64,000 nt of DNA, from contig KQ965769.1 of the NCBI GenBank assembly GCA_001574975.1, forward strand, positions 271,196-335,195, given 5' to 3'. This DNA comes from Gonapodya prolifera JEL478. Taxonomy: Eukaryota; Monoblepharomycota; Monoblepharidomycetes; Monoblepharidales; Gonapodyaceae. Below the pieces are notes generated by a model that ran no database searches, had not been told where the DNA came from, and was given only the letters and a program-made list of their open reading frames with translations. Positions 7 through 32,504 of the stretch are shown in pieces (position 1 is the stretch's first letter; each line of letters starts with the position of its first letter). The position numbers and the translations under genes are program-made.

Positions 7-489
7 ATGGCGGGGAGGCGAGGGAACCGTGGAGGGCGAGATGATCAACGACAGAATGAACAGTCGGGATCCTCCAGACTGCAAATGAAGCACGATCCAA
101 TCGGGGTAGACACGGCGCCGCCAGTCATTCCGCCTCTCGACCCAATCACCCCCTTCCGCTCTGCTCTCCCTGCTCCACCTCCAACTCCGGCCTCAACCAC
201 CCTCCCCGACAAACCCACCCAAATCACGTCCCCGCCCTACTCGTCATCCCTCGTGTTCTCATCCTCCATCATTCTCTCACCAACGCACTCTCGTTCGGGC
301 TCCCTCGCCCTGCTGACGGGGATCGCCGCCCAAGTGCCCGCCTTGACACTCAACCTGCCCTCAACCCTAGGAAGCGTGACAATGATGCAGAGAAGGAGCT
401 TTGCGGCGCCGACTCCGAGTCGGATCATTACGCAGGAATCAAAGCAGGATGGGTTCGGGCTACGGAAACGAGCGTGAGTTCCTCCGCCG

Positions 490-532
<43 letters not shown>

Positions 533-2523
533 CGAGCGCAGCGAGCGTCAAAGCGTAGTGAGGACACCGAGGCCTAATCGCCGCAAGCTGGTGCTGACCG
601 GGAGTCCGCCGGTCGGGACGCGAATAATACAGCGCGGAGTGCTTGGCACCATATCGCCCGGATAGTCTTTCTTCACTGTGCTAAGCGCCACTTGGCGCTG
701 ACCGAGGAGTCCATGCACTCACCTCACCTCACCTCCTCATTGCTGACCCGATCACCCACCCCAGTCTCACCGTACCCAGCCACGCCCTACCCTCCCCAAT
801 TTTACCCCCAACTCCCGTCCTGCCATCACCCCTGATCCTCCCTGCAGTCCTCCCACCGCATGTCCGGGCATACCCGTACCGCGCCTCGTCCGAAACCGAC
901 CCGCCGTGTCCGCCCGACTCTGCCCCGCCTGCGCCTAATCCTGCTCCTGCTCCTGATCTTGCTCATGACGGCGAAGCCGACCACTCCGGCCACTCGGACG
1001 CACCCAAGACCGGGGTCGAGGACGTGACGGACCCAGACCTACCACCACTCCCGACGCCCTCCCCAACGACACCCTCGTCGACGCTCCTCCCACGCCGAGA
1101 CATTGACGCCGTTCTTGCTCACTCGCGCCAATTCTCCGTCTCCGTCGCACGGGGTGGGACCCGCTCGCCCCACAACACCGCACCAAGTACCAGCGCACTT
1201 ACAGACGATCCCGAGCCCGAGCCCGTGGCCGATCCCAATCCACTCCCACCCCAGAAACAGAAACCACGCACGCAGTCCGTCTCAGTTTTCGGGCGCGACG
1301 TGGACGAAGTCGTGTCGGCGGGGTCTCGCTCGCCATCGCCACTGGACCCGGCCACGCTCACGCCCGGAACACCCGTGTCTCTCCCAAAAGACTCTTCACC
1401 CCTGTCGGGAAGATCGTCGCCCCTGGATGTAGACGCGCTTACACTGCACGGATCTAGTGGCGGTGACTCCCCCACGGCTCCGCTCCCACTCGCGCCGATC
1501 CGCTCCCCGCCACTCGCACACCTCCGCATCCCCACACCGGCCGCCACGTCGCCTCTGCGGATTCCTCTGCCCGTACACATGTCCCTGTCCACTCCAACTG
1601 CTCCTGCTGCGGCACCTGTTCCTACACTATCGCACCGCCTCTCTTCATTGCCACCCTCATCATTCCCGAACCACACCACACCCGACACCACGGGGCATGC
1701 GCACCACGGGTCGCCCTTCCTCTCAACATCCTTCCGCGACCCGCCTCCCAGGGATGTCGAGGACCTTTTCGGGCCGCCTAGTCTTGACTCGTCCCTGGCC
1801 GCGCAGGCGCGTGGGTGGGTCGTGGGGAGAGGGAGGAGGAGCATCCACGAACATGGGCAGAACGTGCGGGGAAGAGAGGAGGTGGTGGAAGACGAGCTGG
1901 ATGAAGAGGAGTGGGAAGACGACGACGACACCGCGTCGTTCCCCACCTCCCACGCCCACGCCCACACCACGCCCAGGTCGGGCGGGGGCGGAAGGAAGGG
2001 CATGGTCCCGTACAACCCCATTACGGGCGAGATGGGCGAGACGGGCGGGTTCGGCCCCACGCTGGGCGAGATCGTGGGTGTGGCTGCCGGGGGTCTAGGT
2101 ATGGACGTTGGAGCGTGGGGTCCGGGAGGGAGAGCAGGAGCAGGAGCAGAAGTAAAGGAGTGGAGCGAGGGCCGACCCCGGGTCGTGCCCAACTCCAGGA
2201 GAGCCAGCACCACGGCGGAGTCAACAACTCCACTTCCTGGACCCAGCCTCCGTTTCCGCAGCACCCGGCAGCACACTGCCCGCACCCGTTTTCCACCGCT
2301 GTCTCTCGTTCTGCTATACTTGTGGCGCTTGCTTGTCTTTGTGTTGAAGTACGTCGCGGCAGGATTGCTTGTGGGAGTGGGGTGGGAAGTGGGGAAGGTT
2401 GTTGTCGGGTGGGCTGTCGGTGGTGCTACGAGAGTGGGAGGTGGTGGAGCTGGTGGGGGTGGTGGGGTGGTGGGGGTCGGGGTGGGAATAGGCGCATTGG
2501 GAAGAGGAGGTGGGGAGTTGTGA
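7..2523 (+). CDS. Pro/Ser-rich protein with C-terminal membrane segment, unknown function
   Basis: Two exons, 7-473 and 765-2523, join in frame (phase 2) across an intron with GTGAGT donor and CCCCAG acceptor, giving about 741 aa if the ATG at 7 is the start. The frame is open to the window edge, so the gene may begin further left. Most of the protein is low-complexity Pro/Ser/Thr, followed by an acidic patch (EDELDEEEWEDDDD) and a Gly-rich region. Near the C-terminus is a hydrophobic stretch (LSLVLLYLWRLLVFVLKYVA, then GLLVGVGWEV) that should span a membrane once or twice, before a Gly-rich tail. No known domain is recognised. The intron carries a copy of the intronic repeat family and a 40-base G run. 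Gene existence is supported by the consistent splice and a 1.7-kb open exon; function is unknown. Confidence 0.55.
474..764 (+). repeat. Intron holding copy A of a GC-rich intronic repeat family
   Basis: The intron of the first gene carries a core at about 533-735 that shares exact short blocks with the fifth intron of the DRG1 gene: GAGCGCAGCGAG (534-545 here, 31357-31368 there), CCGAGGCCTAA (567-577; 31373-31383) and GCGCTGACCGAGG (695-707; 31392-31404). The last block forms the 3' arm of a hairpin (TAAGCGCCACTTGGCGCTGACC). The repeat lies in the sense orientation of its host gene. Confidence 0.7.
493..532 (+). repeat. Homopolymer run of 40 G
   Basis: An uninterrupted run of 40 G residues lies just inside the intron of the first gene, before the repeat core. 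G-rich stretches also precede the core in the other three repeat-bearing introns. Its true length is uncertain because such runs are hard to sequence; it could form a G-quadruplex in the transcript. Confidence 0.9.
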
Positions 2524-2721
2524 GAAACCAACAGAGTGGATGGGCCGTGTACGGAGTCGATCGATATATAGGACGAGAATTGTGTAGGAATATGGAGTGT
2601 ATTTATGTGCCAAATGCTTATCTCATGTGCTGGGTGACGGTGGAGAAATGTCTGCAAAGGTCGCAACATTACAGTCAAAACGTTTCACCGAAAATCGCTC
2701 CAACAATCCAGACCGCCACAC

Positions 2722-3135
2722 ATGCGCTTCCTACTATCCCTCGCCAAAGCCCTTTTTGCAATCTTTTTCCCATCCAAGAGGCCGCCTGCGAAACGTACCG
2801 ACAGCTACAAGGTTCCTCCCGAAATCGCCCAACGCGAGAACAACTCCGACATCTCGTGAACTGCTACAGAGCGAGGTCGATCGGCTTGACGTCTCCATAG
2901 ATACCTCTTTTCGACTCCTCGGCATCTTCTTTCCCTTCGCACGGTGAACAAATTCTGGTGGGAACGTTGTCAAGGTTCCAGTGTACCTTCAACTGACCGT
3001 CGTGAGCTATCGCAGGCTCGCAGCAGTGGACGGATGTCCGGAGTGGAAGAAACTATTCGACTCACTGACCCAAAATCAAAAGATTCGGGATGGAGATCAT
3101 GTGGAAGTTTCGGACTTTGGCACTCTGTAAAGACT
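2722..3135 (+). other. Possible small gene or gene fragment, unresolved frames
   Basis: An ATG at 2722 opens a hydrophobic N-terminus (MRFLLSLAKALFAIFFPSKR). Downstream, about 2953-3135 reads as a plausible protein stretch (VVKVPVYLQLTVVSYRRLAA, then EWKKLFDSLTQNQKIRDGDH, ending VSDFGTL and a stop). The two pieces lie in different frames and I found no convincing intron to join them. It is either a small spliced gene or a fragment; no family is recognised. The stretch 3136-3690 shows nothing I can support. Confidence 0.25.
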
Positions 3136-3689
3136 GCGTCTTAATCACTCAGCCCAATTTCGATTCGGCTTCTTTCATCGTACCTTGTAGTTCATCCAAG
3201 ATGCGATCGATGCCGAGAAACTGTCAGTCGCAGCGGTTCGCTGGGGATGCTACATATGGCAGCGCCCAGCACTCGCGCAGGAAAAATTTTGCGTTCCACC
3301 TGTTTTCCTTGCATTTTCCGCCCCTCTTTCCACCCCTTTTCCGTACATCTCTATAATGGACCCGACCCAGGATGGAAAAGGGGGGCGTGGGAAAGGTTGG
3401 TACCAGGTGTGTGGAACAACGTGACGCCCACGCTGAAATTCTGCCGAGATTTCCATCCCTCGTTGGGAGCTCTTCGGCAACCCACGCAATGAATTTATGA
3501 TATTTGTACAATCTATTTGCAGTTATCCACGGAGCTGGCTTCTGGGTAGTCTACGTGACCACCTACAATCTCACCAAAACTCACCGGGAACAGAAGCTGT
3601 TAGTTTAATGCTCAAGCTGCGTGCAAGAACACCTAGCACACAAGAGCGTTGTAAAATATCGCACCTGAGGTACTCTGACAATCAAGTCC

Positions 3690-4480
3690 GTGGTCATTTT
3701 TGCCGACACTCACCTGGAATAGACGTTTGCGAGTTGACATTTCGCCTTCGCGGATGCAAGGCAATTTCCACCGGCGAGATCGCCCAGGGAGACAGAGGAT
3801 GAGAGATAGAGGGATGAGAGTGTAGTCAATGTAAAGCTCGTGACCAGTCAGCGGAAACCCACCTGGAATCGACGTTGGCTCGGTTTATTCGACCGGCATG
3901 TCTCTGTCAAAACGGATTCCACCCGCCGAGAACGCCCAGGGTGGACGCTGAATGGAATGATAGAGCAATTAGAGTGTTTCCTGGGTCAAACTTTCGACCA
4001 GTTCGCCGAAACTCACTAAGAACCGTCGTTGGTCCATGTCATAGCCAAACCGGTTTCTACCGGCGACACCGCCACGAGTCGAAGAGTATAGAGAGATAGT
4101 ACGATAAGAGTGTTTTCGGCGTCTATTTTCCGGCCAGTTCTCCGAAACTCACTTTCAATCGATTCCACCATGTCAAAGGGAGACCCTTTTCACTGGCGAG
4201 AACGCCACAAGTCGAAGAATATAGAAAGACAGAACGATAAGAGTGCTTTCGGCGTCAGGTTTGCTGCCAGTTCGCCGAAACTCACCCCAATCGATTCATT
4301 CCATGTCAAAGTGAAGACCCTTTCCGCCGGCGAGCGCACCTAACATGCAAGAGAAAGGAACGATTAGAGTACTGACTTCATCGTTAATGGGGCGGCGTAG
4401 CCGTAACTCACCCGGAGTCGAAGTTTGGCGTGTTGTTCCTTGATGTTACTCAGGTCGACATGGACGCAGACAGGTAAGGT
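3690..4480 (-). repeat. Degenerate tandem array, period about 130-155 bp, about six units
   Basis: Units begin near 3700, 3845, 3997, 4132, 4265 and 4392. Each carries on the minus strand a motif like GTGAGTTTCGGCGAACTGG, followed by a T/C-rich stretch (for example CTCTTATCGT then CTATCTCTCTATACTCTTCG) and a GGCGTTCTCGCCGG-like block. Read on the minus strand each unit looks like a short exon-like block, a consensus intron donor (GTGAGT or GTGGGT) and a pyrimidine tract, but a matching AG acceptor is not kept in every unit. No continuous protein can be read through. It may be a decayed array of duplicated exon-intron units or a satellite that happens to contain donor sites. Confidence 0.6.
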
Positions 4481-5044
4481 GTGCCGGATAGTACGGGCAA
4501 AACAGACATTCACTGCATTGCTTGATTGCGCTGTTGGCTCGGGTGCCATCGTTGTTTGATGTGAGTTTATGGAAGAGTTTCGGAGTCAATTTTATACACA
4601 TAGATCGTTTCGCTGCCACATGGCCACTTTTGGACCCACGTGGGTTCTTTGACCGACATGGATGTTTTCTGCCGGTGTATTTAAACGGCATCTCATTTCT
4701 GTTTCGTTGGGGGGATAGTTAGCAAGTCTAATAGAAATATAACTATCCGGGAATAGAAAGTGTGTTTGCCGCAAAGCGGTCAACTGCTTCGGTGTCGGGC
4801 GGAACTAGCGGAAAAATGATGTCAACACACCAAACCCTAAAGGATCTAGAGAAGAGAAACTGAAATAAAATTCCCGGCGGCACCCTGCAGTGCCCGACGT
4901 CTCATAAAGGTCTCTGGCCATTTTCTCTTTCACTTGTCTCATACACTGCGCTTGCATCTGCCTCTAAGGCATCTTGAGCTCCATACTTCCAAAAAATTCG
5001 AAACAGATTGGAGGCACAAGCCTCAACTCTATCACACTCTATTC

Positions 5045-6205
5045 ATGCCGGCGGTCTTGCGGAACCAACCGCTTCCCGCTCTCACACTTACTGAACTACG
5101 GAATACTGTAACCCGTGAGCAGATTGAAGCTGCATCACAGAACGACATACTTAAATACATCCGGCAATACAATCGCTCAAATCCTCCTGACAAACTCGCT
5201 GTCGCTGGACCGTTAGTTGAACTCCGCGACAGTCTCCTCGAACTTCTTCCTCAAGCTCCACCAGCCGCACCAGTCCAACCAGCACTGACCCAGTCGCTGA
5301 CACCAGAGCAGCTGAAGGTCTCCCTACCACAAGACCAAATCGCGACTGCCGACCGAACGAAACTTTTGAAACTCGTCGGTCAATACAACAAATCGAACCC
5401 ACTCACCAAGCTCCCAACGAAAGGGGCACTCAAAGACATCCGCAAAGCCATCCAAGCGCTCTACAGCGGGCAGATTCCTGAAGGAGCGGCCAATCCCGCA
5501 GTGGAGATACCACCAGCGGTAAAACCAATCACCATCGATCCTGCCGGGCCGGCGGGAAGTTCTCCCGGACCACACCCGCGACCTGCATTACCTAACTTTC
5601 AAACTCCATTTCCTGACACAAGGGTCGAAGATAAATTTGAGAGCAAAGATAATAACGAGTTACTAGAAGAAATCTTTGAAACAGAACAGTACCTCCGCCT
5701 GGAGACCCTTGACCCAGCGACCATCGGCTTTCAACCACCAACCNCCTTTAACTTTGTCGGCGACAGGCCACTTGCAACGTTTATTAAAAACCCCCTCAAC
5801 CGTGCAATNGAAGCAAAAAAGCGCTGGTACCGTGACAATTGGCCAGTCGCGTGGAAAAGAATTCAGTCATCACCCCACGAAGTTCTCCCCCAAAATGTCT
5901 GGAAAGATATTGCATTCGGTCAACCCATTGACCTCGCCAAATGCCTTGACACCAACGTCCAGTCCGCCCTCACAGGGTCAGATGTTTATGCCATCGAAGG
6001 CACACCAATCTCAATTACAACCTCAAATACAATCAAAACACAGTCTTCGAATACTTCTTTGCATATCGTACGGGATTTTCTGAAGGGTGGGTAAAGAGAA
6101 CGATTGGAAAGGGGAAACGAATGGGAATTGGCCCAAATCACAAGGCGCCTGAGAGGCGACTTCCCGGTGGAAAAAGTGAGACGCAGATTTAGGTGATAGA
6201 AACAA
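5045..6205 (+). other. Relic of a possible mobile-element ORF with duplicated SAP-like domain
   Basis: From an ATG at 5045 the frame encodes two related about 55-aa blocks: one starting LTLTELRNTVTREQIEAA with KYIRQYNRSNPPDKL, the other LTPEQLKVSLPQDQIATA with KLVGQYNKSNPLTKL. Both resemble SAP-type helix-extended-helix domains. A Pro-rich linker follows, then a conserved-looking block (AKKRWYRDNWPVAWKRIQ, VLPQNVWKDIAFGQPIDLAK). The layout recalls N-terminal ORFs of fungal mobile elements, but the family cannot be assigned and no reverse transcriptase, integrase or terminal repeat was seen nearby. The 3' part looks degraded, so it is treated as a fossil of uncertain class. Two single Ns fall inside. 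Confidence 0.4.
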
Positions 6206-12159: not shown

Positions 12160-13560
12160 TTTGAGTCAATGAGTTCGACCATCCCTTAACTCCCTTCCCC
12201 ACTCAACATACATGTTCAAAAATGGCGTGCTGATTCCGGGAGTATTAGCAACGATCCTGGCAGTAGCACCACCCGCTATTTGAATTAAACTACCTGTGCG
12301 AGCGTGGGGGGGGGGGGGGGGGGGGTAATTGAATCTAAGAGTGAAAAAAAAAAGTTTAGAAACACCAGGAAAGTCTATGGTTATTGGAAGCACCCCTAAG
12401 TTACTCCGCACTATTGTCGTGTCTCTGATAGAAGATTCCCTTGCGAGACGTAACTGCATCTGGGCATACTTGTCACCCTGCTTTGCGGCTTTGGCATACC
12501 ACTCCCTAGCTATTGGCTCATCTTGCTTAACACCCCGACCGTACTGGTAGCAGTTGGCCAGATAGTATTGGGCGTCTACATTTCCATTCTCCGCGGCCAC
12601 TTGGAGCCACTTTGCTGCTTCACCTTGGTCTTTGGTGACTCCATGACCGCAAGTGTAGCAAAGTCCCAAATTGAACTACGCGACAGAACCTCCTTGTTTG
12701 GCAGCACGCTGGCACCACTTAAAGGCTGCTGCAGAGTCCGTCGGAAGTACATCAAGTCCATTCCTGTAGAAAACGTAGAGCTGATGCTTCGCCTGTACAT
12801 TTCCAAATTCCACTGTGCAACGCCTTATCCAGATCCTGGGCGTGGCCATTGACACCGTGATAGAAACAGTTTGCCAATGAAAAGAGTGCATTCGCGTCCC
12901 CCATTAGAAGTTCTGGAATTGAGTTGGGTGTCCCTGCAACTGCTGGCTCTCGCCCTAGGCTGCCACAAGTGCAGGTAGGTTGTAAGTTGACAACACCAGT
13001 CTTTTGACAAATTGAACGTTGACTCACGCATACTGTGCGAGGGTTTGCGAGATCCGCAAAAATGAAGGACGGACGTTGGGTTCTGGATCCCAGCATTGCC
13101 TCATCAAGACTCAACATCTTGGGGCATGGACGAATTGGGAGGAAGTTCCGGACAGAGATGAGGTGTGTTCCAAGTGTTCATATTCATTGCAAGCCCGTCA
13201 AACGGGGGCTTCTCGGTCCACAGCTGAAGATTGAGGCGTATTTCAAAAAGTTTAGCTTTGGTCTTGAAGGTCGCATTCAATGGCGTCGACTCACAGAATA
13301 TATGACAATGCCAAACGTATAAACATCAGTCGCTTTTGCGTTTCCCTCTCCTCGCAAACGCTCAGGCGACATGTACCGAAAGGTCCTAATACGACCACCC
13401 GTCGGGTCATAGGCTGGTGCGTCCAAGAACTTAGACGTTCCAAAATCCGTCAAAACAGCGTGTTTCCTCGGGCTTCATATCTGCATGCACAACTCCTTGA
13501 CCGTGGAGGTGCTCCATCCCTCGCAAGTGTCGTATTAGTTTTCAGGGAGTTGGCGATCGC
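12160..13560 (-). pseudogene. Broken protein kinase with C-terminal SEL1 repeats
   Basis: Read on the minus strand, about 13530-13250 gives kinase subdomains VI-IX: LRGMEHLHGQGVVHADMKP, then VLTDFGTSKFLD, then RTFRYMSPERLRGEG and ATDVYTFGIVIYS. Next come LWTEKPPFDGLA and LMRQCWDPEPNVRPSF, the C-lobe of a tyrosine-kinase-like (TKL) domain. Further on are SEL1 repeats (DANALFSLANCFYHGVNGHA; AAAFKWCQRAAKQGG; GEAAKWLQVAAENGNVDAQY; IAREWYAKAAKQGDKYAQMQ). The reading frame changes by single bases at several points, for example after HADMKP and between SEL1 units, and the N-lobe is absent. Kinase-SEL1 fusions are common in early-diverging fungi. I call it a pseudogene, though sequence errors could contribute. 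Its 5' edge abuts an ankyrin gene on the other strand. Confidence 0.65.
12306..12325 (+). repeat. Homopolymer run of 20 G
   Basis: Twenty consecutive G residues just beyond the 3' end of the SEL1 repeats. Length may be inexact. Confidence 0.9.
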
Positions 13561-13562
13561 CC

Positions 13563-14421: not shown

Positions 14422-16050
14422 TTACAGCCCCAACGCAACCGCCGCCAGTCCCAAAAGCGCCGCAACCACACCCGTCCCGACCTCCCTCGCCACCGCCGCG
14501 CCAGGCTTGGCCGCTCCCGTCGCACCCGCCGCCGCTGCCGTAGTAACACTCGCAGAGGGGGCGTTCGCAGTCGTGCTCACCGCCGCTGCCGAGCTCGAGG
14601 CGGCCGCAACGGTGGTCGTGGTCTGCGCGGTGGTCGTCTGAGGTTTCAAGGGAAGGTCCGGGAACACGGTGACGGAGAGGTTGAATCCCCCGCTGGTAGG
14701 TGCTTGCACGGTCACGTTGTCAAAGCCCGGGCCGTAGTTACCGCCCTGTTGTTGGAGACAGCCGCGGGTGTCGAACGTGTCGGGACAGTATGTGTGGTCG
14801 TGGCAGCACCGGAGGCAGTAGATTCTGTGAAGTGGGGAGGGTAAAAGAGGATTTGAGAGGTCAGAGGGGGGAGATGAAAAGAACAGGAAACGGAAACAGG
14901 GAAAGTGACAAGATGCCGGTCTCCATGGAGTACCGTTCCACGAGAGTATTCCCCTCCGCGGGCGCTTCGCCTCCGCGGAGGGATACGCTCTGCGTGAGAT
15001 ATTCGCCTCGGTCGGCGCTGCAGCGCCTACGCCTCGGGCCTCGGTGTCATCGCTCCGCTCGCGTCTCGCAACTCCGGCCTCTGACCTCATTTGCTAGCCA
15101 CCCTCCCCCCCCCATCCCCCACAACGTACCCATTACCCAGAAGCTGTATGAAAGTGTCGTATCCCTTACACGTCGCTAACGGCGGGCACCCTTTCGACCC
15201 GCACCCGATTCCGTTACTGTCCGTCTGCCCGCCCGCGTCGCCGGGCACGAGTGGGAAGGCCGTTTCGTTGTACAGCCCCGTGAGTTGGATGAAGGCTTCC
15301 TGGCCCTGTGCGTTCAGTGCGCGGTGGAAGTGGGCTGAGTAGACAAAGCCGGGAGGGATGAGCCGTTGGGGGCCGGATGTGCAGTATGCGAGGGCGCCGT
15401 ATTCTGTGTGTGGGGGTCGGGGGACGTTAGTTGGAGAGCCAGAGGACGAGGAAAAGGGAAGGGGAAGGGGAAGGGAGAGGACGAACCAGTGTCAGCAATC
15501 AACTGGTTGGGCCCAGGGGGAAGAATGAGACAGAAGTCGTTCTGGTCCGTGACGTGGATCATGACGTCTGTGATGTTGATCACCTATTTTCGTTTACCGT
15601 GGTCACAGGAGTGCGGGTGGGGGAAGTATGTATTACTGGTTGGCATGGTCGACGGGGAAGGGAGACAGGGGCACACAGAACTCACTCTAGGCGACTTTGT
15701 CCCTCGGTCGTTGATGTTGACTGTTACGATCTCGCCGTTGATCGACACGACGTCGACCTGGAACGGGTGGGCGGACGGGGTTGTTGTTCAGTTAGAAGCC
15801 GAAGTGAGAGTGTCGCGCACACCATCGGGTCCCTTCACCAACGGAACAGCCGCTATCCTGGCCCAATCCACCCCTCCCCCCCTTCGCCTGTCCCCCGTAG
15901 CCCCACTTTGCCCCACCCCGCCTCCTCACTCACCCCCGTCAAGTTGATTGGCGGCGTGGACGTCATTTGCGCCCCCGTCCCTTGGGGTGCCATGAGTGCC
16001 AGCCCGGCGGATACGGCGACTGCGATGAGCGGAAGGGAGAAGAGCACCAT
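14422..16050 (-). CDS. Secreted GPI-anchored protein of the macrophage-activating-glycoprotein type
   Basis: Five exons on the minus strand: 16050-15934, 15757-15686, 15583-15487, 15403-15130 and 14824-14422, all joining in frame to about 320 aa. The start MVLFSLPLIAVAVSAGLALM is a signal peptide. The middle matches the pattern of basidiomycete 'macrofage activating glycoprotein' proteins: a VAYCT-like AYCTSGPQRLIPPG, then AHFHRAL...IQLTGL, then VPGDAGGQTDSNG, then IYCLRCCHDHTYCPDTFDTR and CLQQQGGNYGPGFDNV. A Thr/Ala-rich stalk and a hydrophobic C-terminus (GTGVVAALLGLAAVALGL) suggest a GPI anchor. Role in the wall or surface is unknown. The last intron (14825-15129) carries a copy of the intronic repeat. 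Family match is from remembered motifs, not a search. Confidence 0.7.
14825..15129 (-). repeat. Intron holding copy C of the intronic repeat family
   Basis: Within this 305-nt intron the minus strand at about 15085-14935 reads GCGAGCGGAGCGATGACACC, GAGGCC, a hairpin GGCGCTGCAGCGCC, then GACCGAGGCGAATATCTC and two CCGCGGAGG arms. This matches the order of blocks in copies A and B. A G-rich tract (GGGGGATGGGGGGGGG) precedes it after the donor. Orientation is sense to the host gene. Confidence 0.7.
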
Positions 16051-19528: not shown

Positions 19529-21571
19529 ATGCTGCCCTCTCCGCCGCTCACTCCCCCGCCGCTGTCCCTGTCCCTGTCCCTCCTCCCAGACGACTCCGAT
19601 CCCTCCTCACCCCCGTTCCGCGTCCCCGCCCCACGGTTTCTACTCGAGACTCCCAGTGGACGATTGGGGGATTTGGCAACACCAATCATAGACTCGACGA
19701 AGCTGACTATGCCGGACTACATCGCTGACTACGCGCTGCGGCGGTCGCACGACGGACGCGACAGCCACGACCAGGAGGACGCGGACCAGGACTCGACACC
19801 GACGCGACATACCCGATCCGCATCACAGACCAGCACGCGCTCCACGGGGATCGCAAACGACGCGGTGTTTTATACGAGCTTGTACTATAATCATGTCATG
19901 GTCGGATTGGGGTTTATTACGGGGACGAGGTGGTGGAACCGGTGCGTGGTGTTGGGTGTGCCGATCGGACCGAGCCGACTGCCGGTACCGGACCCTTTCT
20001 GTGATGTCACGAGGTGGTGGGTCCGGGAGGTACCTGAGTGCAGAGGGAAGACATAGGGGAATGAGTGTGACTAGGAAGTGATGGCCTGTCATTGGATCGA
20101 GGGGTGCCGGTCTCGACAATCACAAAGGCCTCATTGCGGTCCTCACCCAATACCTCTCACCCCACCATCATCGCAGAATCACACCCAACGTCATCCTCGG
20201 CGCCATCCCCGCGCACCCCTTACTGCAAGACCTCGTATCCAACCAAATGGTGTTCGCAGTCCTCTCCGTCATCGAACCGAACCGCCTCTACGTCGCGTCC
20301 ACTGAAGAGTACGCCAGGTGAGTCTTGCCCGCCCGCCGTTGTCCGGGCGTCCTGCCTGGCGAGCCTCTTACCACCTTCGTGTACCTGTGCCTGCACCTGT
20401 ACCCTCTCTATATTCCCTCCGGACGTTCGACACGGGCGCCGCACCGCCACACCCCCCAGAATGGGCATCCGCTGGCTCAACCTCGACGCCGACGACTTCA
20501 CCGACCTCCCCCACTCCATGCTCCTTCGCGGGGTCGAATGGATCGAAGACGCCCTAAGGGAGGAGTACGCGAGGGTCGGGGAGAGTCTGGCTCGAATCAG
20601 TGCCAAAGTCGGGCGGACAACGTCGTTGGCGTCGATTGAGACGGTCAAAATACATGCGAGGAGGCATTCGGTTCTGGGTGTGCGGACGGGGTCGTGGAGT
20701 GGCAGTAGAGGGCCCGGGTCGGGGACGCCCGGGATGCAGGGCACGCCGGGCACGCCGGGCACGCCTGGGACGCCAGGGAAGGAACTGACGTCTTTCCCGG
20801 ACCCGATTGGGTACGCGGATGTGCCCGGTGGGACCGTGTTTGGGAAGTCGGTGTATATTCACTGTAAGGTGCGTTTGGGTGGGCGGTGGGGGGAATGGTC
20901 GGGGGGTTCGGGGGTCTGGAAGGGGAAGGGTGGTTGGTGAGGGAGGGCGGAGGAGTGACCGCCGGATGTGCCAGTACTTGGAATGGGGAACGAAGACGTT
21001 GGTCAATGCTGGGCAAGCACGCTCCTGGGGCTTCGGTGGTGGTGGGTGGTGGCGGTGTGCGGTGTCGGGACCTGTCGATTCCGTTGGGTTGCGGGATCAT
21101 TCTCACCTTCCTTCACATTAACCACCTCGCTCACATCTTCCTCCATTCCCCATCCCGTCCTCACCACACTCGACCCCCTTTCACCCACCGCNCCCGCCCC
21201 CCTCTCTCTCCCCACCCCCACTAAAAAAGGCCGGGCGCTCCCGCTCCGCCGCCGTGGTCCTCGCCCACCTCATCCGCAGGTACAGATTGACGTTGGAAGA
21301 AGCCCAGGGGATTCTGCAGAGGAAGCGGCCGCAGGTGCGCTTCGTTGTTGTGTTGTAGTGCCCACCCGCTCGTTCGGGTGTTGATTCGTGTTTGCTCCCC
21401 TCCCACCCTCGCCACCCTCGCCACCCATCCCCCACCTACCGCCACCGCCCGCACAAAAAGGTCTCCCACCGCGTACACACCATGCCCTCGGTCCGGCGAT
21501 TCTACGAGGAAACACTGGCGAAGGAGGCCATGGATGAGATCGTGCGGTATCCGTGGATTGATCAGGTCTGA
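19529..21571 (+). CDS. PTPMT1-like dual-specificity phosphatase, copy 1
   Basis: Exons 19529-19941, 20177-20317, 20460-20868, 21230-21334 and 21461-21571 give about 392 aa with every junction in frame. After a Ser/Pro-rich N-terminus and a hydrophobic stretch (DAVFYTSLYYNHVMVGLGFI), the body follows PTPMT1: WWNRITPNVILGAIP, then VLSVIEPNRLYVASTEEY, RWLNLDADDFTDLP, the split active site VYIHCK|AGRSRSAAVVLAHL (Cys-x5-Arg), and LEEAQGILQRKRPQ. The assigned role in other eukaryotes is dephosphorylating phosphatidylglycerophosphate in cardiolipin synthesis. Between helix and active site is an insertion with collagen-like GTP repeats (GTPGTPGTPGTPG). A paralogue follows 0.7 kb downstream. Exon 3 begins at an intron the paralogue lacks. 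Confidence 0.85.
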
Positions 21572-22245
21572 AGTCTGAGCCGGAGCGTGAGAGTGAAAGA
21601 GTAGGAGCAGGCTGGCGCGCGAGAGCGAGAGCGAGCGAAAGAAGAAGCACGAGAACGAGCAGGAGCAGCAACAGGAGCAATGACAGTTAAGGAAGCGACA
21701 ACGACAGACGGACGCCGTGGGGAGTGACACGAAGAGGCGAACCGCATGGCGGCATACGTATCCCCACGCTCCGCAGCCCCAAGCTTTCACCCACACGTTG
21801 GACACCGACCAAGGCCCCCTCTTTCCGGTCAACCACCCAACGCACACCTTTCCCTTCCCGATCTCTTCATCCTCAACCCCCGCACTCCCCCCCGCGGACC
21901 CCTTGCCGAACCCTGTACAATACCCCCCTCGCGCAGTGCCTGTAGCATACACCATTGGCAGAGCGAGAGCGCGAGCACAAGGTGGCAGTCTATTACTTTT
22001 ATTTTACCGTACCCTACCCCCTCCAAAAAAAACCCCATTGCATTTGGCGGAACCTCACATATCTATCACCTTTTTTAACTTAGTCGTTGGTATTGTATGA
22101 TGTAGACGGGCAAGAATGAGAACGTGTTGGTGATTTGATCCTGCGCTGACTAAGTACCAAGGCTTATTTAAAAACCTTGCGCCGTCTTCAGGCCATAGGC
22201 TTCCCCGCACTGCCGTGGTCAGAGGCACTTCCCATCACCTTCGCG

Positions 22246-23951
22246 ATGCTGCTGTCTTCGTCGCGAACGGGGCCTCCTCGCTCGCTCTCCCTATCAAGGC
22301 TTTCCGAAGACTCAGATTCCCCGTCTCCGCCCTTCCGCGTCCGCGCCCCGCGCTTTTTGCGAAAAACTCCGTCCTTGAGACTCAGCGACCTGGCAACGCC
22401 AATCATCGACACCACAAAGATTGAACCGCAGGACTACTTCGCTGATTACTCTTTTCGGCACTCCCAGGAAAGCCTGGACCACGTGGAACGTCGCCCGAAG
22501 CCAACCCGACATGTCCGATATGCCTCTGAGAAAAATCCGCGCTCCCCGGGGATCGCAAACGACGCAATGTTCTACACCAGCCTGTGCTACAACCAGATTA
22601 TGGTCGGACTAAGCTTCCTCACGGGAACACGATGGTGGAACCGGTGCGTGTCACGTGACCATCACACAGTCTTGGGATCCTTTTCCGTGACGTCACCCTT
22701 ACAGCGGGAGGGTGAAGGGTGCAGTGTCGGGGCGGGGAAAGGGTTGATGCGAAACATGCATTTGGGGAGCGTCGGGTGACTGTGTGTGGCTCCATTTGTG
22801 AAGGAACGTACTGAGGACAGTGTGACCAACTGGTTGTTATTGACACCGCTTTTTTCATGAGAGTTCTTCTCTCCACACTTCTCCTTTCAGCATCACACCC
22901 AACATAATTCTCGGCGCGATCCCTGCTCGCCCCCTGTTGCAAGACCTCATCTCCAACCAGATGGTCTTCGCCGTCCTGTCTGTGATCGAGCCCAACCGTC
23001 TCTACATCACCTCCTCCGAAGAGTACGCGAAGCTGGGGGTGCGGTGGCTCAACTTGGACGCGGACGATTTCGCCGACCTGTCGTACGACGTGCTCGTGGC
23101 AGGCGTCGAGTGGATCGAACAAGCACTGAAGGAAGAGTACATCCGCGTGGGGGATTCCCTCGCGAGCGCTGTTCGCAGGACGGTGTCCATGACCTCGATC
23201 GAGACGGGCAAGATTCACACTCGGAGGTTTACGGACTCGGTACTGGAGATTTCGTCGGGGACACCGGGGAAGGAGCTCACTTCGTTTCCGGACCCGATTC
23301 GGTACACTAGTACGCCTGGTGCGTCGGTGTTTGGAAAGTCGGTGTATGTTCACTGCAAGGTGCGTTACCAGTGCGGGGCTTGGTTCGGAGATGGCGGTAG
23401 GAAAAAGGTGAAGGTGAGACGTTTCTCCGCTCATCCGACAGGTAAGTGGTACTCTTTTCAGTACTGAGCTTGGTCGGATACTCAGGATTCCTTCTGTATT
23501 CGAAGAATAAAACACCCGTCAGCTGCCACTTGGTGCCAGCAATGTTTCCCCGCCGCTCCTGATCAGGTCTTTTCCTCCCGGATCCCCCTTTCACTCTTTT
23601 CCTTCCTCCTACTCCCAAAGGCCGGTCGCTCCCGCTCCGCTGCCGTGGTCCTCGCGCATCTCATCAGTCGGTACCGCCTCACCCTTGAGGAAGCCTTAGC
23701 GATTCTCATCCGGAAACGCCCACAGGTACGTTCCCTCGTTATCCGCGATTGGTGAGGACCGGTCGGTGGTACGCTTGAAGACTGACCCTGTCTCGTGATC
23801 TATTCAAAATGCTCGTATCGTACCACTCTCACCATCCAAGGTCTCGCCCCACATACAGGCAATGCCCTCGGTACGGCGCTTCTACGAAGATATTCTGGGC
23901 AAGGAGACGCGGTGCGAGATCATGCGGTACCCATGGTTCGACCAGGTCTGA
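22246..23951 (+). CDS. PTPMT1-like dual-specificity phosphatase, copy 2
   Basis: Exons 22246-22643, 22891-23359, 23621-23725 and 23859-23951 give about 354 aa in frame. It is a tandem paralogue of the gene at 19529: same N-terminal Ser-rich segment, FYTSLCYNQIMVGLSFLTG, WWNRITPNIILGAIPARP, LGVRWLNLDADDFADLSYD, active site VYVHCK|AGRSRSAAVVLAHL and C-terminus MPSVRRFYEDILGKE. It lacks both the intron between EEYA(R/K) and the (M/L)G(I/V)RWLN block and the GTP-repeat insertion. The active Cys and Arg are kept, so both copies are probably functional. Introns 1, 3 and 4 of the pair are at identical positions, which shows the duplication arose at DNA level. Confidence 0.85.
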
Positions 23952-24534
23952 TGCCCGAACGAAACAGCACTGGAAGTTATACAAGGTGTGTTCGATGAAC
24001 ATTTGGCAAGACTAGAGGAGACCCCCATGAAAGCATTGCTGTACGCTTATAGCACACACCCCTAGTCCTCCTTGTCCAACCGCAACTACGTCAGCTGGCG
24101 TACATCACCCGTTCTTCACCTGCCTGTACAATACCCAAAATCCCTTCGACTAGCGGTTTCGCTGTACCATATCGTCTTAGCCTCCCACAACAGCGGTGCC
24201 CTTGCTTTTTACGATTAATGCATCAACCTACTTCGCAAACGATCCTTGCATTCCCCATTGGAAGCTGCAAAAGTTATTGTTGGTATAATCAATATTTTAC
24301 TGTAGATAAGAAACAAATATTGTCGTGTGGTGACTGCCTGTCACGCAAATGGGATGGTTCAACTCTGCCGGAGAGATGCCAGATGGGTGTCGCGAATCAG
24401 AGGTGACGGGGTCGACAAACCTCGGTCATGCAGATTAGTCGTGGATCGAGAAGGCCCCGCAAGACGGGCATTCATTACGGTATTGACACATCCTATACAA
24501 AGAGACCTCGTCGATAACAGTACGTCCACCCAGG
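23952..24534. other. Intergenic between convergent genes
   Basis: About 580 bp with no gene or repeat I can support. Confidence 0.5.
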
Positions 24535-25656: not shown

Positions 25657-25899
25657 TGCGTTGCAGTGTGGTTTTGGGCGGGATGTGTTTGGGTTGCAGA
25701 AGTGGGCCGGTCGCCGCGAATGTGGGTGTCGGGTCATCAACTGACCGCTGTCGATCAATTCGTAAAAGTCTCCTTGAATGGAATTATCATTGGAAAATCT
25801 CCACTGGAATAGCGGATACGTTCATTGTGCCAGTCTGGTCTCGTCCACTACTTGGCCCAGACATGGCCCAGCCATGACCCACACTCAAAGCCACATCAC

Positions 25900-26284: not shown

Positions 26285-26527
26285 GTTCGTGTTGGACCTG
26301 CCTTCTCATCACGACTTGGCAAACACACAGCACACTCTTCGCTTCGTCGTAACGCTAAACGATGAAAGAAAACATCAAAAGTGCATTCGAATGAAACAAA
26401 ACTACAACGAAAAGGTGTTACTTCAAGCGTTTCGCTCTGCCAGAAGTGTCTTCTGCAACTTATCCAAAGACCAGTTCTGCTCAAGACGCCGCTCCCCCAA
26501 CACACTCACCGCGGCTTCAGCACTACC

Positions 26528-27830
26528 TTAGCTAAGTGCCAGAACTGTGACGTCGTCGTACACAGCTTTGCGCCGGAGAAACAGTTGGGTGTCCCGCAAC
26601 TCCGGCTTCCACTTTGCCCCAAACCTCGATTCCATCTCCTTAATGGGGGGGCCGCCGGCGTATCCATCCACATACTCGGCCCAATCATCGGGAACAGTCT
26701 GAATACTACAATTCAAGCTGTATTTGACCATAGCCTGTCGTGGTGGCCACCTGAATCCCGATGGGGCCTCCTCCACGTCTTCCACGTCTTCCACGTCTTC
26801 TTCCTCTCGCTCTTGTGGCGCGGCTGCTCTATCAGAGTGCTGGTAAAGTGTTGGGGCGTTGCTATCTCCACTGGGGCCAGAGGGAGGGGGAGGGGTGGGA
26901 TTGACCGGACCACCTCCAGCAGCACCACCTGTGGAAGCCAGAGACGCCATGAACGACTGAAAGCCATTGCTCAGAGCATTAAAGAGGGAGTTGCTGGACC
27001 GTGTAAGTGATGAGTCTTTGCCGTTGAGGGAGTTGACGGACTCCATAACAGGATATATGAGGTTGTGCACGGGCACTGATCGTCTCCCTCTGGTGGGCAC
27101 CCATTGCAGCTATGAGATCTGGAGCTACTCAATCACGCTCTGTAGATGCAGTTGCTTGAGCTCCCGTCGCTGCCATTGCTGCCAAAAGCTGCCTCCGAAA
27201 CTCTTCAAAAGCGTGAAACTGAAAAACAGGGGTTTGAAAGAGTGAGTGATCCTGGTAAGAGTCATTTCCCTTAAAAGCAGCTGCGTCTTGTAGTAAGACA
27301 ACCCGCAACCATTTCAGAAGGTCCAGAAACCCTATTGCCGCAAGGTCTTGATTCGCTCCAGTCCTTGCCGTCACCTCCGTCCACACTGTGTCCACTTCGG
27401 GAAAATGGCAGAATGGAGCTGCTCTGAGGGGACCACTACGTTGCGCTGGAAGAACTATGTCTTCCCAGTTGGAGCAAAACCAGCCAGGGCGAGAATGGGA
27501 CCACGAGGGATTTTGCTCATATATGAGCCCTCCATGCGCTCCCCATTCCAACGCCCTAAGCGCCTCCCTTGGTTGTCATCAATGCCTGCGATCTGTTCAA
27601 GCTGGCGAACTGGTACATGCCGTCGTGCTTGAGTTTTGCTGATCGAGTTGATTCCAATCGAGGCCAACATCCTGTTGGTTGACTTGTGCTGTGCAGCATA
27701 TTTAATATGCTTAAGAGGATCAATGTCGTCCTTTCCTCCTTTTGCAAGCACAATATGGTACCACGCAGATCTGGCAGACCGATCTGGAAAATAGAGATCG
27801 AGGTCATATCTGCCATGAACAAAAGACTGT
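26528..27830 (-). mobile_element. Crypton DNA transposon remnant (tyrosine recombinase)
   Basis: Three fungal-Crypton parts are in order on the minus strand. First, at about 27825-27460, is the C-terminal part of a tyrosine recombinase: YDLDLYFPDRSAWYHIVLAK, then HKSTNRMLASIGI, KTQARRHVPVRQLEQIAGID, GRRLGRWNGERMEGSYMSKI. The catalytic Tyr is in GSYMSKI; the usual KTH is KTQ here. Second, at about 27480-27130, is an NDC10-II-like domain (NQDLAAIGFLDLLKWLRVVL, LQDAAAF, HAFEEFRRQLLAAM). Third, at about 26700-26530, is a GCR1_C DNA-binding domain (DDWAEYVDGYAGGPPIKEME, RFGAKWKPE, RRKAVYDDV). The recombinase is missing its N-terminal half and first catalytic Arg, and there is a frame break after LALAGFAPTG. 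The copy is therefore truncated and dead. Confidence 0.75.
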
Positions 27831-28375
27831 GAGAGGATGACCTAGAAGCACTGATAGCAGTTTAGCCGTTGGCGGGACGCGCTTCAGGTGTTTCCCTCAC
27901 TGCGTATGCTTCACTTCTTTACAGGTTCGGGGCTCAGCAGTGCCATAGGAGCATACTCTACCCGACCCCGATGCTCATTCCAATGTCCGTCGTCCGATCG
28001 TCGCGTCCAAACAGCAAGCGTTTATCAGATATATGTTTTTGATAGGCGTTATACTGAGTAGTTTTGGCGAAAAGGTCCCATTCACGAAATACGTGTGTCA
28101 CCAGCCCAGCAAGGTTCGAGGAGAGAGATATTTGAAAATGATGTGAAGAAGTTAGGGTTCCTGAAGGTCCTTGATGCTGAAGCTGTCCATCTTGAAATCG
28201 AAGTCGTAAATGAGTTTCCTTTGATCAACTACGCACCTGACTCCGACCACGCACGTCTGCATTTCGTTCACGAATTCCCACGTTTCGCGCTATTTCCCTG
28301 TTTTTGTCGTCTTGTGTTCAAAATGGCACAAAAAACCTCCAAAAGTTCTGCCGCTCACCTTCCCCCCTGACATGA
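27831..28375. other. Intergenic with one unexplained minus-strand open stretch
   Basis: About 545 bp between the Crypton remnant and the PGAP4-like gene. On the minus strand about 28100-27960 reads HVFREWDLFAKTTQYNAYQK and HISDKRLLFGRDDRTTDIGM, which looks protein-like but matches no family known to me. Nothing else is supported. Confidence 0.3.
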
Positions 28376-30197
28376 ATGCGCACTCCTCCGCGTACTCCGA
28401 CCCGCCTCCGCCGCTCCCTTTCTCTCCCTCTGGCGCTCAACGCCGCGTCGCCCGTCCGTATCCCCCCCGTCCACCGCATCGTCGCTGTCCTCTTGCTGGC
28501 GACTCTTGTTGTCCCACTCTGCACCTATCTGTTCCTCCGCGAATCCCTCGATGACAACCGATACTCGTACTTTTACCAGTGGGATGAAAAGGCGCTGACC
28601 CGGAACGAGGCGATCCGGCTAGTCCATTCGGAGGTTCTGATCGATATTCTCAGCGGAGGTGCCGTGCCTCGCCAAAACGGTCTGGATCATGCCAAGTCGA
28701 ACAAGACTGGACTCTTTTTCGACGTGGACGAGAGTGTGGAACCGGATATATGCTTTGTGGTGATGGCAGGGGCGCCCCGTGAGCGAAAATACCTGACTCA
28801 GGTAAGTGTGTGGGGGCCAGGTGACGCGGAATGAACGAGGTGAAGCCGAGTGAAGTGGAGTCGAGCCACGCGAGGTCTGGAGTGCGAAGCATGGACGAAC
28901 GAGTACCGAGGCCGGAGCAAGCGCTGAACGAGACTGGCCGCCGGAGGCGAATACCCCGAGAAGCGGAATACTCTCACTGAGCTCATATCCCCGCCGGAGG
29001 GGAATGATCCATGCGGAGTGCGAATGGTACAGCCCGGAACGGAATTTACTCTCGCAATGCGTACATTTCACAGGCGGATTGGGGCTGGAGCAGGTGGAGC
29101 ACGTTTAGTTCGCGAAACTGCAAATGAAATTTGAAATTACCTTTTTCATATCTCGTCCCCACCGTCTTTAGACCGTCGCATTCCTCCTCGCCCACATCAA
29201 CCCCATAAACGCCTCTGACGCCCGGCGTGTCCAGCTCTCCATCTATTCAACCCTCCGCCCGACCGACAACGCCACCGAACTCTCCCGCCTTTCTCGCGTC
29301 GTGCGTGTCGTCTCAAATAATCGCACTACAGAAGCAGATGCCAGGACCACCACGTGGTCAGCAAAGCTCAGTCTCGACAGGGCGAGAGCGTACCGATACG
29401 CGGACGAGGCCGGATGCAGATTCGCGGTGATGGTCGAGGACGATGCGATTGCGGGGAGGAATTTGCTCGAGACGCTTACGAGGGCCGCGGAGGAGCTGGA
29501 GCGGAAGAAGGTGGAGTGGGGGTTTGTGAAACTGTTCTACACGGGTACGTTGAGTTCCATTGTAATAAGGACGGTTCATTGTGGACAAAGGTTGTTTCTC
29601 CACGTGCGCCTTGCTCACCTACCCTCCTCCCATCCAGAATACTGGTGGGGCTGGTCTGTCGACCTTCGCGACATCGTCCAGCTCGTCCTCATGGGCGTCT
29701 CCGCCGGTCTCGTCCTAACACTCGCATCCTCACTTATCCTCCTGCCCTGCCTCCTACCCCGCAAACCACCCATCGTCGTCCACCTCGTCTCCTTCGCCTA
29801 CTTCACCGCCTTCGCCACACTCATCCTCTGGTCCGTCGGCAAACAAACCATATTCGCGCCCATCACCCGCGCCCCCGGGCTGCACCTGCGCACACCGGAC
29901 GAGGTGCGCGCTGTCGGGGTTGCCCACCTCCATCCGCGTCGCCACCTCTCCAGCCTCGCGTCCTACCTCGAGGAGCGCGCATGCGACACGTGCCGCGAGA
30001 CGGACAATCTCGCCGACGACTGGACGTTCGAAGCGGGCGTGAGTCGGTGGGAGCTCGTCCCGCACGTGTTTCAGCACATTGGGGTGTTCAGCTCGTGGAA
30101 GGCTAAGAACCAAGGGGAGTTTCGGTGGGTGAAGACGAGCACGGCGTTTTATGACGACAGTGTGAGATTGTTTGGGGATGGGGGGGTGCTGCTGTGA
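28376..30197 (+). CDS. PGAP4-like GPI-glycan glycosyltransferase
   Basis: Exons 28376-28801, 29172-29544 and 29638-30197 join in frame to about 452 aa. An N-terminal signal-anchor (HRIVAVLLLATLVVPLCTYL) is followed by a luminal GT-A region (DICFVVMAGAPRERKYLTQ|TVAFLLAHINP). This contains the acidic motif AVMVEDDAIAGRNLLETL and the conserved WGFVKLFYTG|EYWWGWS. Two closely spaced membrane segments then interrupt the catalytic domain (IVQLVLMGVSAGLVLTLASS and VVHLVSFAYFTAFATLILWS), and the end has VPHVFQHIGVFSSWK. This split-domain layout is characteristic of PGAP4/TMEM246, which adds GalNAc to the GPI glycan in the Golgi. The first intron (28802-29171) carries a copy of the intronic repeat. 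Confidence 0.8.
28802..29171 (+). repeat. Intron holding copy D of the intronic repeat family
   Basis: The 370-nt first intron of the PGAP4-like gene contains at about 28826-29030 the most diverged copy. It has GAGTACCGAGGCCGGAGCAA, GCGCTGAACGAG, then GGAGGCGAATACC, GCGGAATACTCTC and GGAGGGGAAT. The last three blocks are closest to copy C. A GTGTGGGGG tract follows the donor. Sense to the host gene. Confidence 0.6.
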
Positions 30198-30502
30198 AGG
30201 GTGGTCATATTCACATTGGAGGTGCTCTGGGTCTCAGTGGTGTGAGGCCATTGGAGCAGTGATTAAACATTGGAAAAAGCGTAATTGATTGAGATTTGAG
30301 AGTAGGTGCAGACATTGTTATGTACATGGAATTCAATTGGCGTAATGTCAGAAGCTACAACATTCCTTATTCATGAGGAATATTCAGCTTGCCCGTTTTC
30401 ATTCAAGCTTTGATAATGGGTTTGTGGGTGGCGGCAGAACTGTCCAGCCGGCTAAATTCGATTTCGAACAAAGCCCAACACCTCCGACAAAACAGCGCAA
30501 AC
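30198..30502. other. Intergenic between two plus-strand genes
   Basis: About 305 bp with no gene or repeat seen. It should hold the 3' end of the PGAP4-like gene and the DRG1 promoter. Confidence 0.5.
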
Positions 30503-32504
30503 ATGGGCATTCTCGAGCGAATCGCAGACGTACGTGGCCACTCTAAACACCGGCTACCTTAATTGCGACCCGCGACAACTCCCATCACGCTCACCGCACC
30601 CCACGCACTTCCACCGTCGCAGATCGAGAAGGAGATGGCACGGACGCAGAAGAACAAGGCAACTGAGTACCACATCGGTTTGCTTAAGGCCAAGCTGGCA
30701 AAGTACCGCCTGCAGCTCTTGGAACCCCAGGGGAAGAGCGGTGAGGAGTTCTTCGAGTAGCCAGTCGATCCGGACCGGGCTTATACCGTCAACCAATTGT
30801 GTATTATAGGTGGAAAAGGAGAGGGCTTTGATGTGATGAAGTCGGGCGATGCGAGGGTCGCGCTTGTGTGAGTTATGGAGAAAGTTCCTCTTTCAAAAGC
30901 ACGGACTTCAAGGATACCCCGGACGTCGGACGGGGCTGCGCCAACACAGCGGATTTCCCTCCGTCGGAAAGTCGACCCTCCTGTCCAAAATCACAGAAAC
31001 CGAGTCCGTCCAGGTACGTTCACCATTCCTTAAAACCATGTCCCCACTGCCTAGCGGCAATCATCCTTCCACCCACCCTCCCCCACCCACCCACTCCACT
31101 CCACTCCAGGCCGCATACGAATTCACAACCCTCACGTGCATCCCAGGCGTCATTCCCTACCACGGCGCGCGTATTCAGCTCCTCGACCTGCCCGGAATCA
31201 TTGAGGGCGCTGCCCAGGGAAAGGGAAGAGGACGGCAGGTTATTAGTGTGGCCAAGACGAGTGATTTGATTTTGATGATGTTGGATGCGAGTGAGTTGAG
31301 GGTGGTGTATGTGTGTGGGGCGGGGGGACAGCGGAGAATAAAAGACCGGGCGGGCCGAGCGCAGCGAGGGCTCCGAGGCCTAAGCGCGATAGCGCTGACC
31401 GAGGCATACATCTCGCGGAGCGAGCCCCGGGACCTTGCCCAAATGGGGCCGACCGAGGATGTAATCCGGGGATTGGTCGGCAGGTTGGGATGTGATGGGG
31501 TGTATTGATAATTCGTCGAAATTGACCGACCTGCTGCCTGCCGGCGAACAGCAAAGGGCCCCGAAATCAAGGACATTCTCGAACGGGAACTCGAAAGCGT
31601 CGGAATTCGTCTCAACCGGCGCAAACCAAACAGTGAGTCCACAACCTCTATTCGTCACCTCCGTCCTTCGCTCACCCAACTCTGCCTTTTGCTACACCCA
31701 CTTCTAGTCTACTTCAAGCCCAAGAAAACCGGCGGGATCTCTTTTACGGCTACCTGCAAGCTCACGCACCTCTCCGACTCGCTGTGCGCTTCCATCCTCC
31801 GGGACTACCGCATCCACAACGCCGAGATCCTCGTCCGCGAGGACGCGACGGTAGACGAGTTCATCGACATCGTGTTGGGGAATAGGAAGTACATGAAGTG
31901 CCTTTATGTGTATAATAAGGTGGATGCTGTGTCGTTGGAGGAGAGTGAGTTGAAGAGGTGTCGGTCGACGTCTCTGTCTGGTGCGGACCGCCCAACCGCA
32001 TGCACCCTTATATGACAAACGCACATCCCTTCTCTTGCCTTCCCTTGCACCCCACTTTCTCTGCCCCACGCACCCTTCCCACCCCCGCAGTCGACCGCCT
32101 CGCGCACCTCCCCGACACCATCGTCTGCTCCACCATCATGGACCTCAACCTCGACCACCTCATAGACCGGATCTGGACCGCGCTGGACCTGCTCACGATC
32201 TACACCAAGCGCCGTGGGGAACTGCCCGACTTCGAGGGCGGTGTGATTATGAGACGCGGAGCGTCAGTGGAGGACGTGTGTCATAGGATTCATAGGACGC
32301 TGGCGAGGGAGTTCAAGTATGCGTTAGTTTGGTGAGTAAGGGTGGGGTGTTTGGGTCGGTTGGAGACGGAGCAAGTTGGAGTGCAGCGGGTGCTGACAAT
32401 GCCGACTTTGTTGTAGGGGTCGTTCGACAAAGCACAACCCTCAGAAAGTCGGTCTGAAGCATTTGGTGGAGAATGAGGACGTCATTCAGGTGGTAAAGAA
32501 ATGA
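30503..32504 (+). CDS. DRG1: Developmentally regulated GTP-binding protein 1 (RBG1)
   Basis: Nine exons (30503-30529, 30623-30740, 30810-30867, 30950-31013, 31110-31290, 31552-31632, 31708-31944, 32091-32331, 32417-32504) join in frame to about 364 aa, the usual length of DRG1. The N-terminus [20 protein letters not shown] is family-specific. G1 is [16 protein letters not shown]2/G3 FTTLTCIPG and [11 protein letters not shown], and G4 appears in YNKVDAVS. The S5D2L insert is present ([20 protein letters not shown]), and the TGS domain ends [22 protein letters not shown]1 binds DFRP1 and acts on stalled or translating ribosomes. Intron 5 carries a copy of the intronic repeat. It is convergent with the SDR gene downstream. 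Confidence 0.95.
31291..31551 (+). repeat. Intron holding copy B of the intronic repeat family
   Basis: Fifth intron of DRG1, between LDA and TKGPEIK. The core at about 31334-31488 has GAGCGCAGCGAG, CCGAGGCCTAA, a hairpin AGCGCGATAGCGCT, GACCGAGGCATACATCTC, then GCGGAGCGAG and a second GGGCCGACCGAGG. A GGGGCGGGGGGA tract precedes it. The other DRG1 introns are shorter (67-146 nt) and carry no such core. Confidence 0.75.

Follow-up and report, generated by a model that had tools for sequence, protein, structure and literature searches.

A modular, mostly sense-oriented repeat family with hairpin units in introns of Gonapodya prolifera

Introner-like elements of Dothideomycetes and other Pezizomycotina were reportedly described by van der Burgt in 2012. 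For such fungal elements, stable structures or inverted repeats have been reported (quoted in the accessible part of PMC8469720). In a survey of 3,325 genomes, the Pezizomycotina were the fungal group among the eight groups recovered from annotated genomes, and the pipeline excludes most secondary insertions within existing introns (Gozashti 2022; available sections of PMC9860276). For the sister stwintrons of the Hypoxylaceae, the accessible text of PMC8469720 describes no target-site duplication, and discusses a link to transcription and a coding-strand R-loop model. Introners explain new introns; what makes introns grow and what could confine mobile DNA to the coding strand of introns are open questions. 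Here we describe an intronic repeat family of Gonapodya prolifera JEL478, represented by four copies (W1 to W4) in a stretch of 64,000 nt on contig KQ965769.1, hereafter the window. Other contigs (C-numbers) and sampled loci (L-numbers) are from the same genome. No such family was found in the literature on fungal and Basidiomycota introners or on sense-oriented intronic repeats in fungi, as partially covered here, with subscription papers and bioRxiv preprints mostly outside the coverage.

Family size, orientation and location of the copies

By the best-fitting class of a gene model, 59 of 70 copies lay in introns in sense orientation, 3 in introns in antisense orientation and 8 elsewhere (48, 2 and 6 with a margin >5). 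The same model placed 210 random segments 39 times in sense introns, 28 times in antisense introns and 143 times in non-genic DNA (30, 20 and 110 with a margin >5). The model was small and trained on sampled DNA, and each copy was itself hidden during class scoring. These copies were not spread equally over compartments and orientations. The repeat showed the sense orientation and genic enrichment of introners, and not the distribution over both orientations and intergenic DNA of cut-and-paste DNA transposons or miniature inverted-repeat transposable elements. With a plain coding-frame score, 54 of the same copies were sense, 1 was antisense and 15 stayed undecided. When the copies and their flanks were aligned with one another, 7855 alignments were on the plus strand (self-matches included) and 67 on the minus strand.

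The copies were drawn from L001–L004, L010–L068, a tile of C1 and the window. L001–L008 were the first eight places of a first pattern, L009–L038 were matches of W3 and W4 with their surroundings, and L039–L068 were the first 30 places of a second pattern. L005–L008 were excluded for lack of a profile hit, though L007 by eye resembles a sense intronic copy. Overlaps were removed via identical first 60 core bases, and both members of duplicated pairs were counted (e.g. L019 and L024; W3 and W4 with L010). L064 was entered twice, on either side of a stretch of N that was read as A, where its margin is meaningless. The C1 tile was picked for two known copies and is an unfair sample of density.

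The orientation bias was also seen from the splice donors. A GTRVGT motif was present within 100 nt upstream on the sense side of 51/70 copies and on the antisense side of 11/70, compared with 36/210 and 27/210 for random segments. In a genome-wide, model-free count, GTGAGT preceded the core by 10–40 nt in 38 sense and 3 antisense cases, and by 41–71 nt in 46 sense and 6 antisense cases. Both ranges sum to 84 sense and 9 antisense, with a chance expectation of about 5 of 322 by our own arithmetic; the two arrangements do not mirror each other exactly, because an antisense copy puts the 3′ part of the element between donor and core. The 9 antisense matches correspond to 8 cores, 2 of which (on C36 and C53) double as the core of a sense match. 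At C36:71366-71436 and C53:107596-107705, single cores are flanked on both sides by GTGAGT, one per strand.

A genuine sense bias is therefore well supported, but it is not absolute. The original prediction, that the repeat occurs only in introns and always in sense, holds within the window but not strictly across the genome: L075 (C1:365251-365650) is a clear antisense intronic copy, and L040/L070 (C1:318158) is an antisense copy in or beside a coding frame. Of the three antisense calls, that of L075 is clear and those of L040 and L030 are weak. A looser model also called L002/L042 and L045 antisense, L002 being sense by eye. Among the eight copies outside introns, L052, L053 and L066 have a sense donor. 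Non-genic DNA made up 54% of the 144 kb modelled with copies masked (about 40% by subtraction in a first run), and introns about 10%.

The ordered blocks that had been noticed in the four window introns are far more frequent than expected by chance. Across the 47.56 Mb and 207 contigs of the genome, the 13-base core GAGGCCTAAGCGC occurs 164 + 158 = 322 times on the two strands, compared with 0 + 1 for the reversed control, and GAGCGCAGCGAG occurs 74 + 72 times, compared with 7 + 13. These counts rule out a chance likeness of the four introns. Only part of the copies hold the core (5/13 found without core selection and 13/26 picked by similarity), so its 322 occurrences suggest several hundred copies; the window density (4 copies per 64 kb) extrapolates to nearly 3,000. 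Overall, we place the copy number between several hundred and a few thousand. Besides the gene copy on C126, matches to W3 and W4 were 36–177 nt long and 72–98% identical (40 of 263 candidates scored). As in introners, many similar introns were found in unrelated genes: the nine host peptides tried were all unrelated by Pfam and comprised an RNA polymerase subunit (Pol III RPC2), an epimerase, eIF4E, EF-Ts, an aldo-keto reductase, LIM, NIPA, a methyltransferase and CID. The core with both arms had 0 matches in a viral collection and 0 in a prokaryotic collection.

Anatomy of the repeat and its window copies

Family similarity sets in at the 5′ splice site and is gradually lost across the final 100 nt of the intron. 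This was revealed in 56 sense introns by coverage, the share of positions to which three or more other copies align. The ten bases upstream of the 5′ splice site had a coverage of 0.47, in part because model donors were set too far downstream; it was 0.75 in the first ten bases of the intron and 0.93 by +30, with values up to 0.96. Towards the 3′ splice site, coverage decreased from 0.65 at −100 through 0.51 at −80 to 0.09 at the site itself. Similarity near both splice sites, as in introners, was thus not found in these introns. Sense element introns had a median length of 312 nt; the donor preceded the core by 46 nt, and 89 nt separated the core from the 3′ splice site. The remaining 3′ tail is private to each intron and has roughly the length of an ordinary intron.

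The repeat starts at, or some tens of bases past, the 5′ splice site, in some copies behind a G tract. Its modules are the G tract, GCGAGGTCTGGAGTGCGAAGCACGGAAGACCGAGC, the hairpin unit, and CCGCCGGAGGCGAATG- and CCGCGAAGCGGAATAC-like blocks. The number of modules after the donor varies, and single modules are repeated or missing in individual copies. No constant element end was found among the compared copies. G runs of at least 5 were present in 26/65 element leaders, which vary in length, compared with 7/232 ordinary introns read over their first 46 nt. The association of a G-rich tract with the 5′ splice site, noticed first in the window, is therefore real.

The hairpin unit is maintained through paired changes. 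In 110 units with the stem AGCGC/GCGCT, including some other than the hairpin unit, 82.7% of cells were paired, whereas 2000 shuffles averaged 69.4% and reached 74.4% at most. Fully paired units numbered 62 of the 110, compared with at most 53 in shuffles. By our own count, 15 units had changed in both arms and were still fully paired, and one-sided changes were of the G-U type in 10 cases and of the A-C type in 10, an equality that indicates no sense-RNA preference in pairing. The folding of whole copies was not superior to that of dinucleotide shuffles (mean z −0.28 for 48 copies and −0.04 for 40 ordinary introns). A conserved hairpin, as originally predicted, thus exists for single units and not as a property of the whole copy. 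Sense RNA was slightly stabler than antisense RNA (−0.372 vs −0.350 per nt; better in 37/52, Wilcoxon P = 0.0002), and CTRAY branch-like motifs numbered 91 on the sense strand of the copies and 13 on the antisense strand. In a comparison with Rfam, snoRNA included, nothing in the window reached the gathering score, and five loci were without a match up to E = 1.

In the window, coordinates, splice ends, frame joining and profile agree on four intronic repeats, all in sense orientation and one in a minus-strand gene, as predicted (Table 1). Genes of the window are built as in a compact, intron-bearing eukaryote. A profile from 29 sequences outside the window recovered exactly W1–W4 in the 64 kb (E 0.001). 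Exons joined in frame at 4/4 predicted introns (open frames, hand count), e.g. TQ to TVAFLLAHINP at W3. Ordinary introns, taken as predicted introns of 45–130 nt, had a median length of 76 nt, so the host introns, at 261–370 nt, are indeed long. The upstream exon of W4 matched the GTPase family MMR_HSR1 in Pfam, and we take this host gene to be DRG-like; 4/5 pieces of window host genes had no Pfam match.

Table 1 Window copies of the repeat, and intron lengths in element copies and their second gene copies.
Feature	Window position	Strand	Intron length, element copy/second copy (nt)	Details
W1 intron with repeat	474..764	+		GTGAGT...AG; G tract 489-532; blocks about 534-712
W2 intron, minus-strand gene	14825..15129	-		GTACGT...AG; core about 14939-15068
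W3 intron	28802..29171	+		GTAAGT...AG; core about 28897-28978
W4 intron	31291..31551	+		GTGAGT...AG; core about 31353-31406
W4 hairpin unit	31375..31404	+		GAGGCCTAAGCGC-loop-GCGCTGACCGAGG
L032			364/335	two introns and a small exon spanned
L034			319/253	
L026			217/330	
L038			389/361	
L028			255/166	
L021			394/324	
L015			306/54	
L033			276/294	
L036			189/70	
L035			396/233	

The G tract of W1 is a run of about 44 G immediately upstream of the repeat. Window positions 12306-12396, with a G run at the start, are 91% identical to C16:438120-438205, beside which C16 has additional matches to the leader and repeat of W1. The 3′ half of the W4 intron contains the complementary segments GGTTGG..CCGACC, which on C126 (L010) read GGTTGG..CCAACC, by eye a change that preserves pairing; perhaps these segments shorten the path to the 3′ splice site. 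Further repeats of the window include a multi-copy stretch at 4756-6025, which matches C71 at 95% and C66 at 85% identity and, over shorter lengths, also C48 and C68. It is perhaps a transposable element. Its frame had no Pfam match, and neither had 7/8 other window frames. Two adjacent paralogous stretches, with pieces 72–81% identical, are found at 19771-23958, and a tandem array of units about 133 nt long at 3798-4334.

Second gene copies and the origin of the repeat-bearing introns

Parts of the genome are present twice, with about 78–98% identity. Of the host-gene flanks searched, 0/23 on the five largest contigs (C1–C5) and 11/15 on smaller contigs had a second copy; a second copy of every gene is thus not supported. 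Window positions 28342-33968 and beyond are duplicated on C126 (L010–L012, L077, L078) at about 79–92% identity, with an inversion between neighbouring genes. No second gene copy was found for L016, L030 and L022. L016/L030 as a gene pair was rejected, because the repeat alone matches and the exons do not, and it is outside the set below.

Among 13 diverged second copies of host genes, 11 had a long intron, 2 an interval of ordinary size and 0 a continuous exon. Second-copy lengths (Table 1) are from match coordinates, hand-corrected for query ends by up to 28 nt (L028); for L034 (minus), a second copy exists outside the measured set. The repeat was confirmed in 7/11 long second copies, 3 by sequence and 4 by a core or motif match in the interval; those of L026, L032, L021 and L033 were judged by length alone. 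In W3, W4 and L019/L024, compared by sequence, the repeat is common to both gene copies. The W3 and W4 repeats are both on C126, where the form of W4 is longer, and a 36-nt hairpin segment is present in L019 and not in L024. Near window position 36,915, a gap of 368 nt relative to C126 looked like an insertion; it was rejected as one of the family, because no copy was seen there by eye. One of the two short intervals, on C12, has 70 nt (GTCGGT...AG) and aligns with the private 3′ tail of the filled intron L036; a 101-base stretch of C12 had a family score of 25.4 bits, equal to the 99th percentile of the shuffle scores. The other is on C149. Given the family scores of both, insertion and deletion look alike at these two places.

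Our preferred reading, which we consider probable, is that a modular, 5′-anchored repeat spread to short introns that were already in place, keeping to the coding strand and taking a transcription-linked route. The element would insert into these introns and would not create them. In addition, copies change length as hairpin modules are lost or gained. Less firmly, its propagation may be tied to transcription, which would account at once for the sense orientation and for the scarcity of copies outside transcribed introns; this step we infer from the orientation bias. The route could run through coding-strand DNA left single-stranded by R-loops at the G-rich starts of introns, or through excised intron RNA. 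No enzyme for the element was found, nor was a search aimed at one made. G clusters on the non-template strand favour R-loops. More tentatively, the repeat could be an intron parasite, a hairpin-bearing modular element that enters the exposed coding strand just behind the 5′ splice site during transcription and enlarges existing introns without making new ones, in which case mechanism and not selection would make it sense-oriented and intron-restricted. The nine-fold (84 vs 9) to twenty-fold (59 vs 3) sense bias, the 5′ anchor and the private tail would make transcription-linked insertion testable.

Several observations weigh against the spread into existing introns. None of the 13 second copies provided an insertion with a clean empty site. 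The short interval on C149 has TTGAGT at the donor place, with no GT there, and scored 28.3 bits against the family, where the maximum of 200 shuffles was 26.8. Judged by this score, it likely holds a remnant of the element and may have arisen from a copy by deletion. Both C12 and C149 are without a G tract, which does not favour G-rich introns as targets. The copies have 1.71 YAG per 100 nt on the sense strand and 2.71 on the antisense strand, so selection could account for part of the bias. Moreover, the gene model behind the intron classes is crude and without an RNA check, and by eye it mislabelled L002 and L053.

A true introner-like element would have made the introns itself and brought its own 5′ splice site; its 3′ ends would since have become unrecognizable through divergence, and short introns at matching positions would be decayed copies. 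This is in line with the similarity that starts at the 5′ splice site and with the likely remnant on C149. The donors of the filled L036 intron (GTGCGT) and of C12 (GTCGGT) differ, so the donor may belong to the element, and introner-like elements reportedly soon lose all that sets them apart from regular introns (PMC4457414, accessible part). However, most copies share no sequence on the side of the 3′ splice site, no second gene copy has a continuous exon, and sense remnants in 232 ordinary introns showed little excess over shuffles (5 vs 3.4 at 25 bits or more, 2 vs 0.6 at 28 bits or more). We regard this origin as unlikely. Intron residence, sense orientation, unrelated host genes and a family hairpin stand from the original assignment to introners; membership itself is unsupported, because the similarity stops before the 3′ splice site and the short second copies keep an interval of ordinary intron size.

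Insertion at random of an ordinary interspersed repeat, with antisense and intergenic copies selected away or not tolerated, would suit the few existing antisense copies and the surplus of YAG acceptor-like triplets on the antisense strand. It appears improbable, since non-genic DNA is large and introns are about 10%, yet only 8/70 copies lie outside introns, and selection on splicing could not remove intergenic copies. The paired changes of the hairpin unit, beyond the shuffle maximum, the slightly better folding of sense RNA and the excess of sense CTRAY motifs all point towards a non-mobile intronic RNA element under selection, either a splicing aid or an intron-borne RNA. Set against these are the missing Rfam match, the folding no better than that of shuffles, the equal one-sided G-U and A-C changes, the widely varying module content and the two second gene copies that manage without most of the repeat. 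Such a function is very improbable in our view.

Comparison with known systems

The Gonapodya repeat shares with the introner-like elements of Dothideomycetes and other Pezizomycotina the many similar intronic sequences in unrelated genes, the coding-strand orientation and the genic enrichment (available parts of PMC4457414 and PMC9860276). Each of the Pezizomycotina elements makes up an entire intron, with similarity close to both of its splice sites, and creates a new intron position (same sources, same parts), whereas the Gonapodya repeat has a private 3′ end and modular, diverged copies. The sister stwintrons and cropped sister introns of Hypoxylaceae are likewise proliferating intronic sequences, which are symmetric and on the coding strand only; these introns are nested or cropped, have terminal inverted repeats of 45–55 nt and occupy new positions (PMC8469720, accessible text). 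No long terminal inverted repeat was noticed in the Gonapodya copies, for which no dedicated search was made. High copy number and genic enrichment are common to the Gonapodya repeat and the introners of Micromonas or derived from DNA transposons, but unlike the latter, the element does not span the intron (PMC9860276, sections available). An intron-enlarging parasite, if true, would be a class separate from introners and one that the design of introner surveys mostly excludes.

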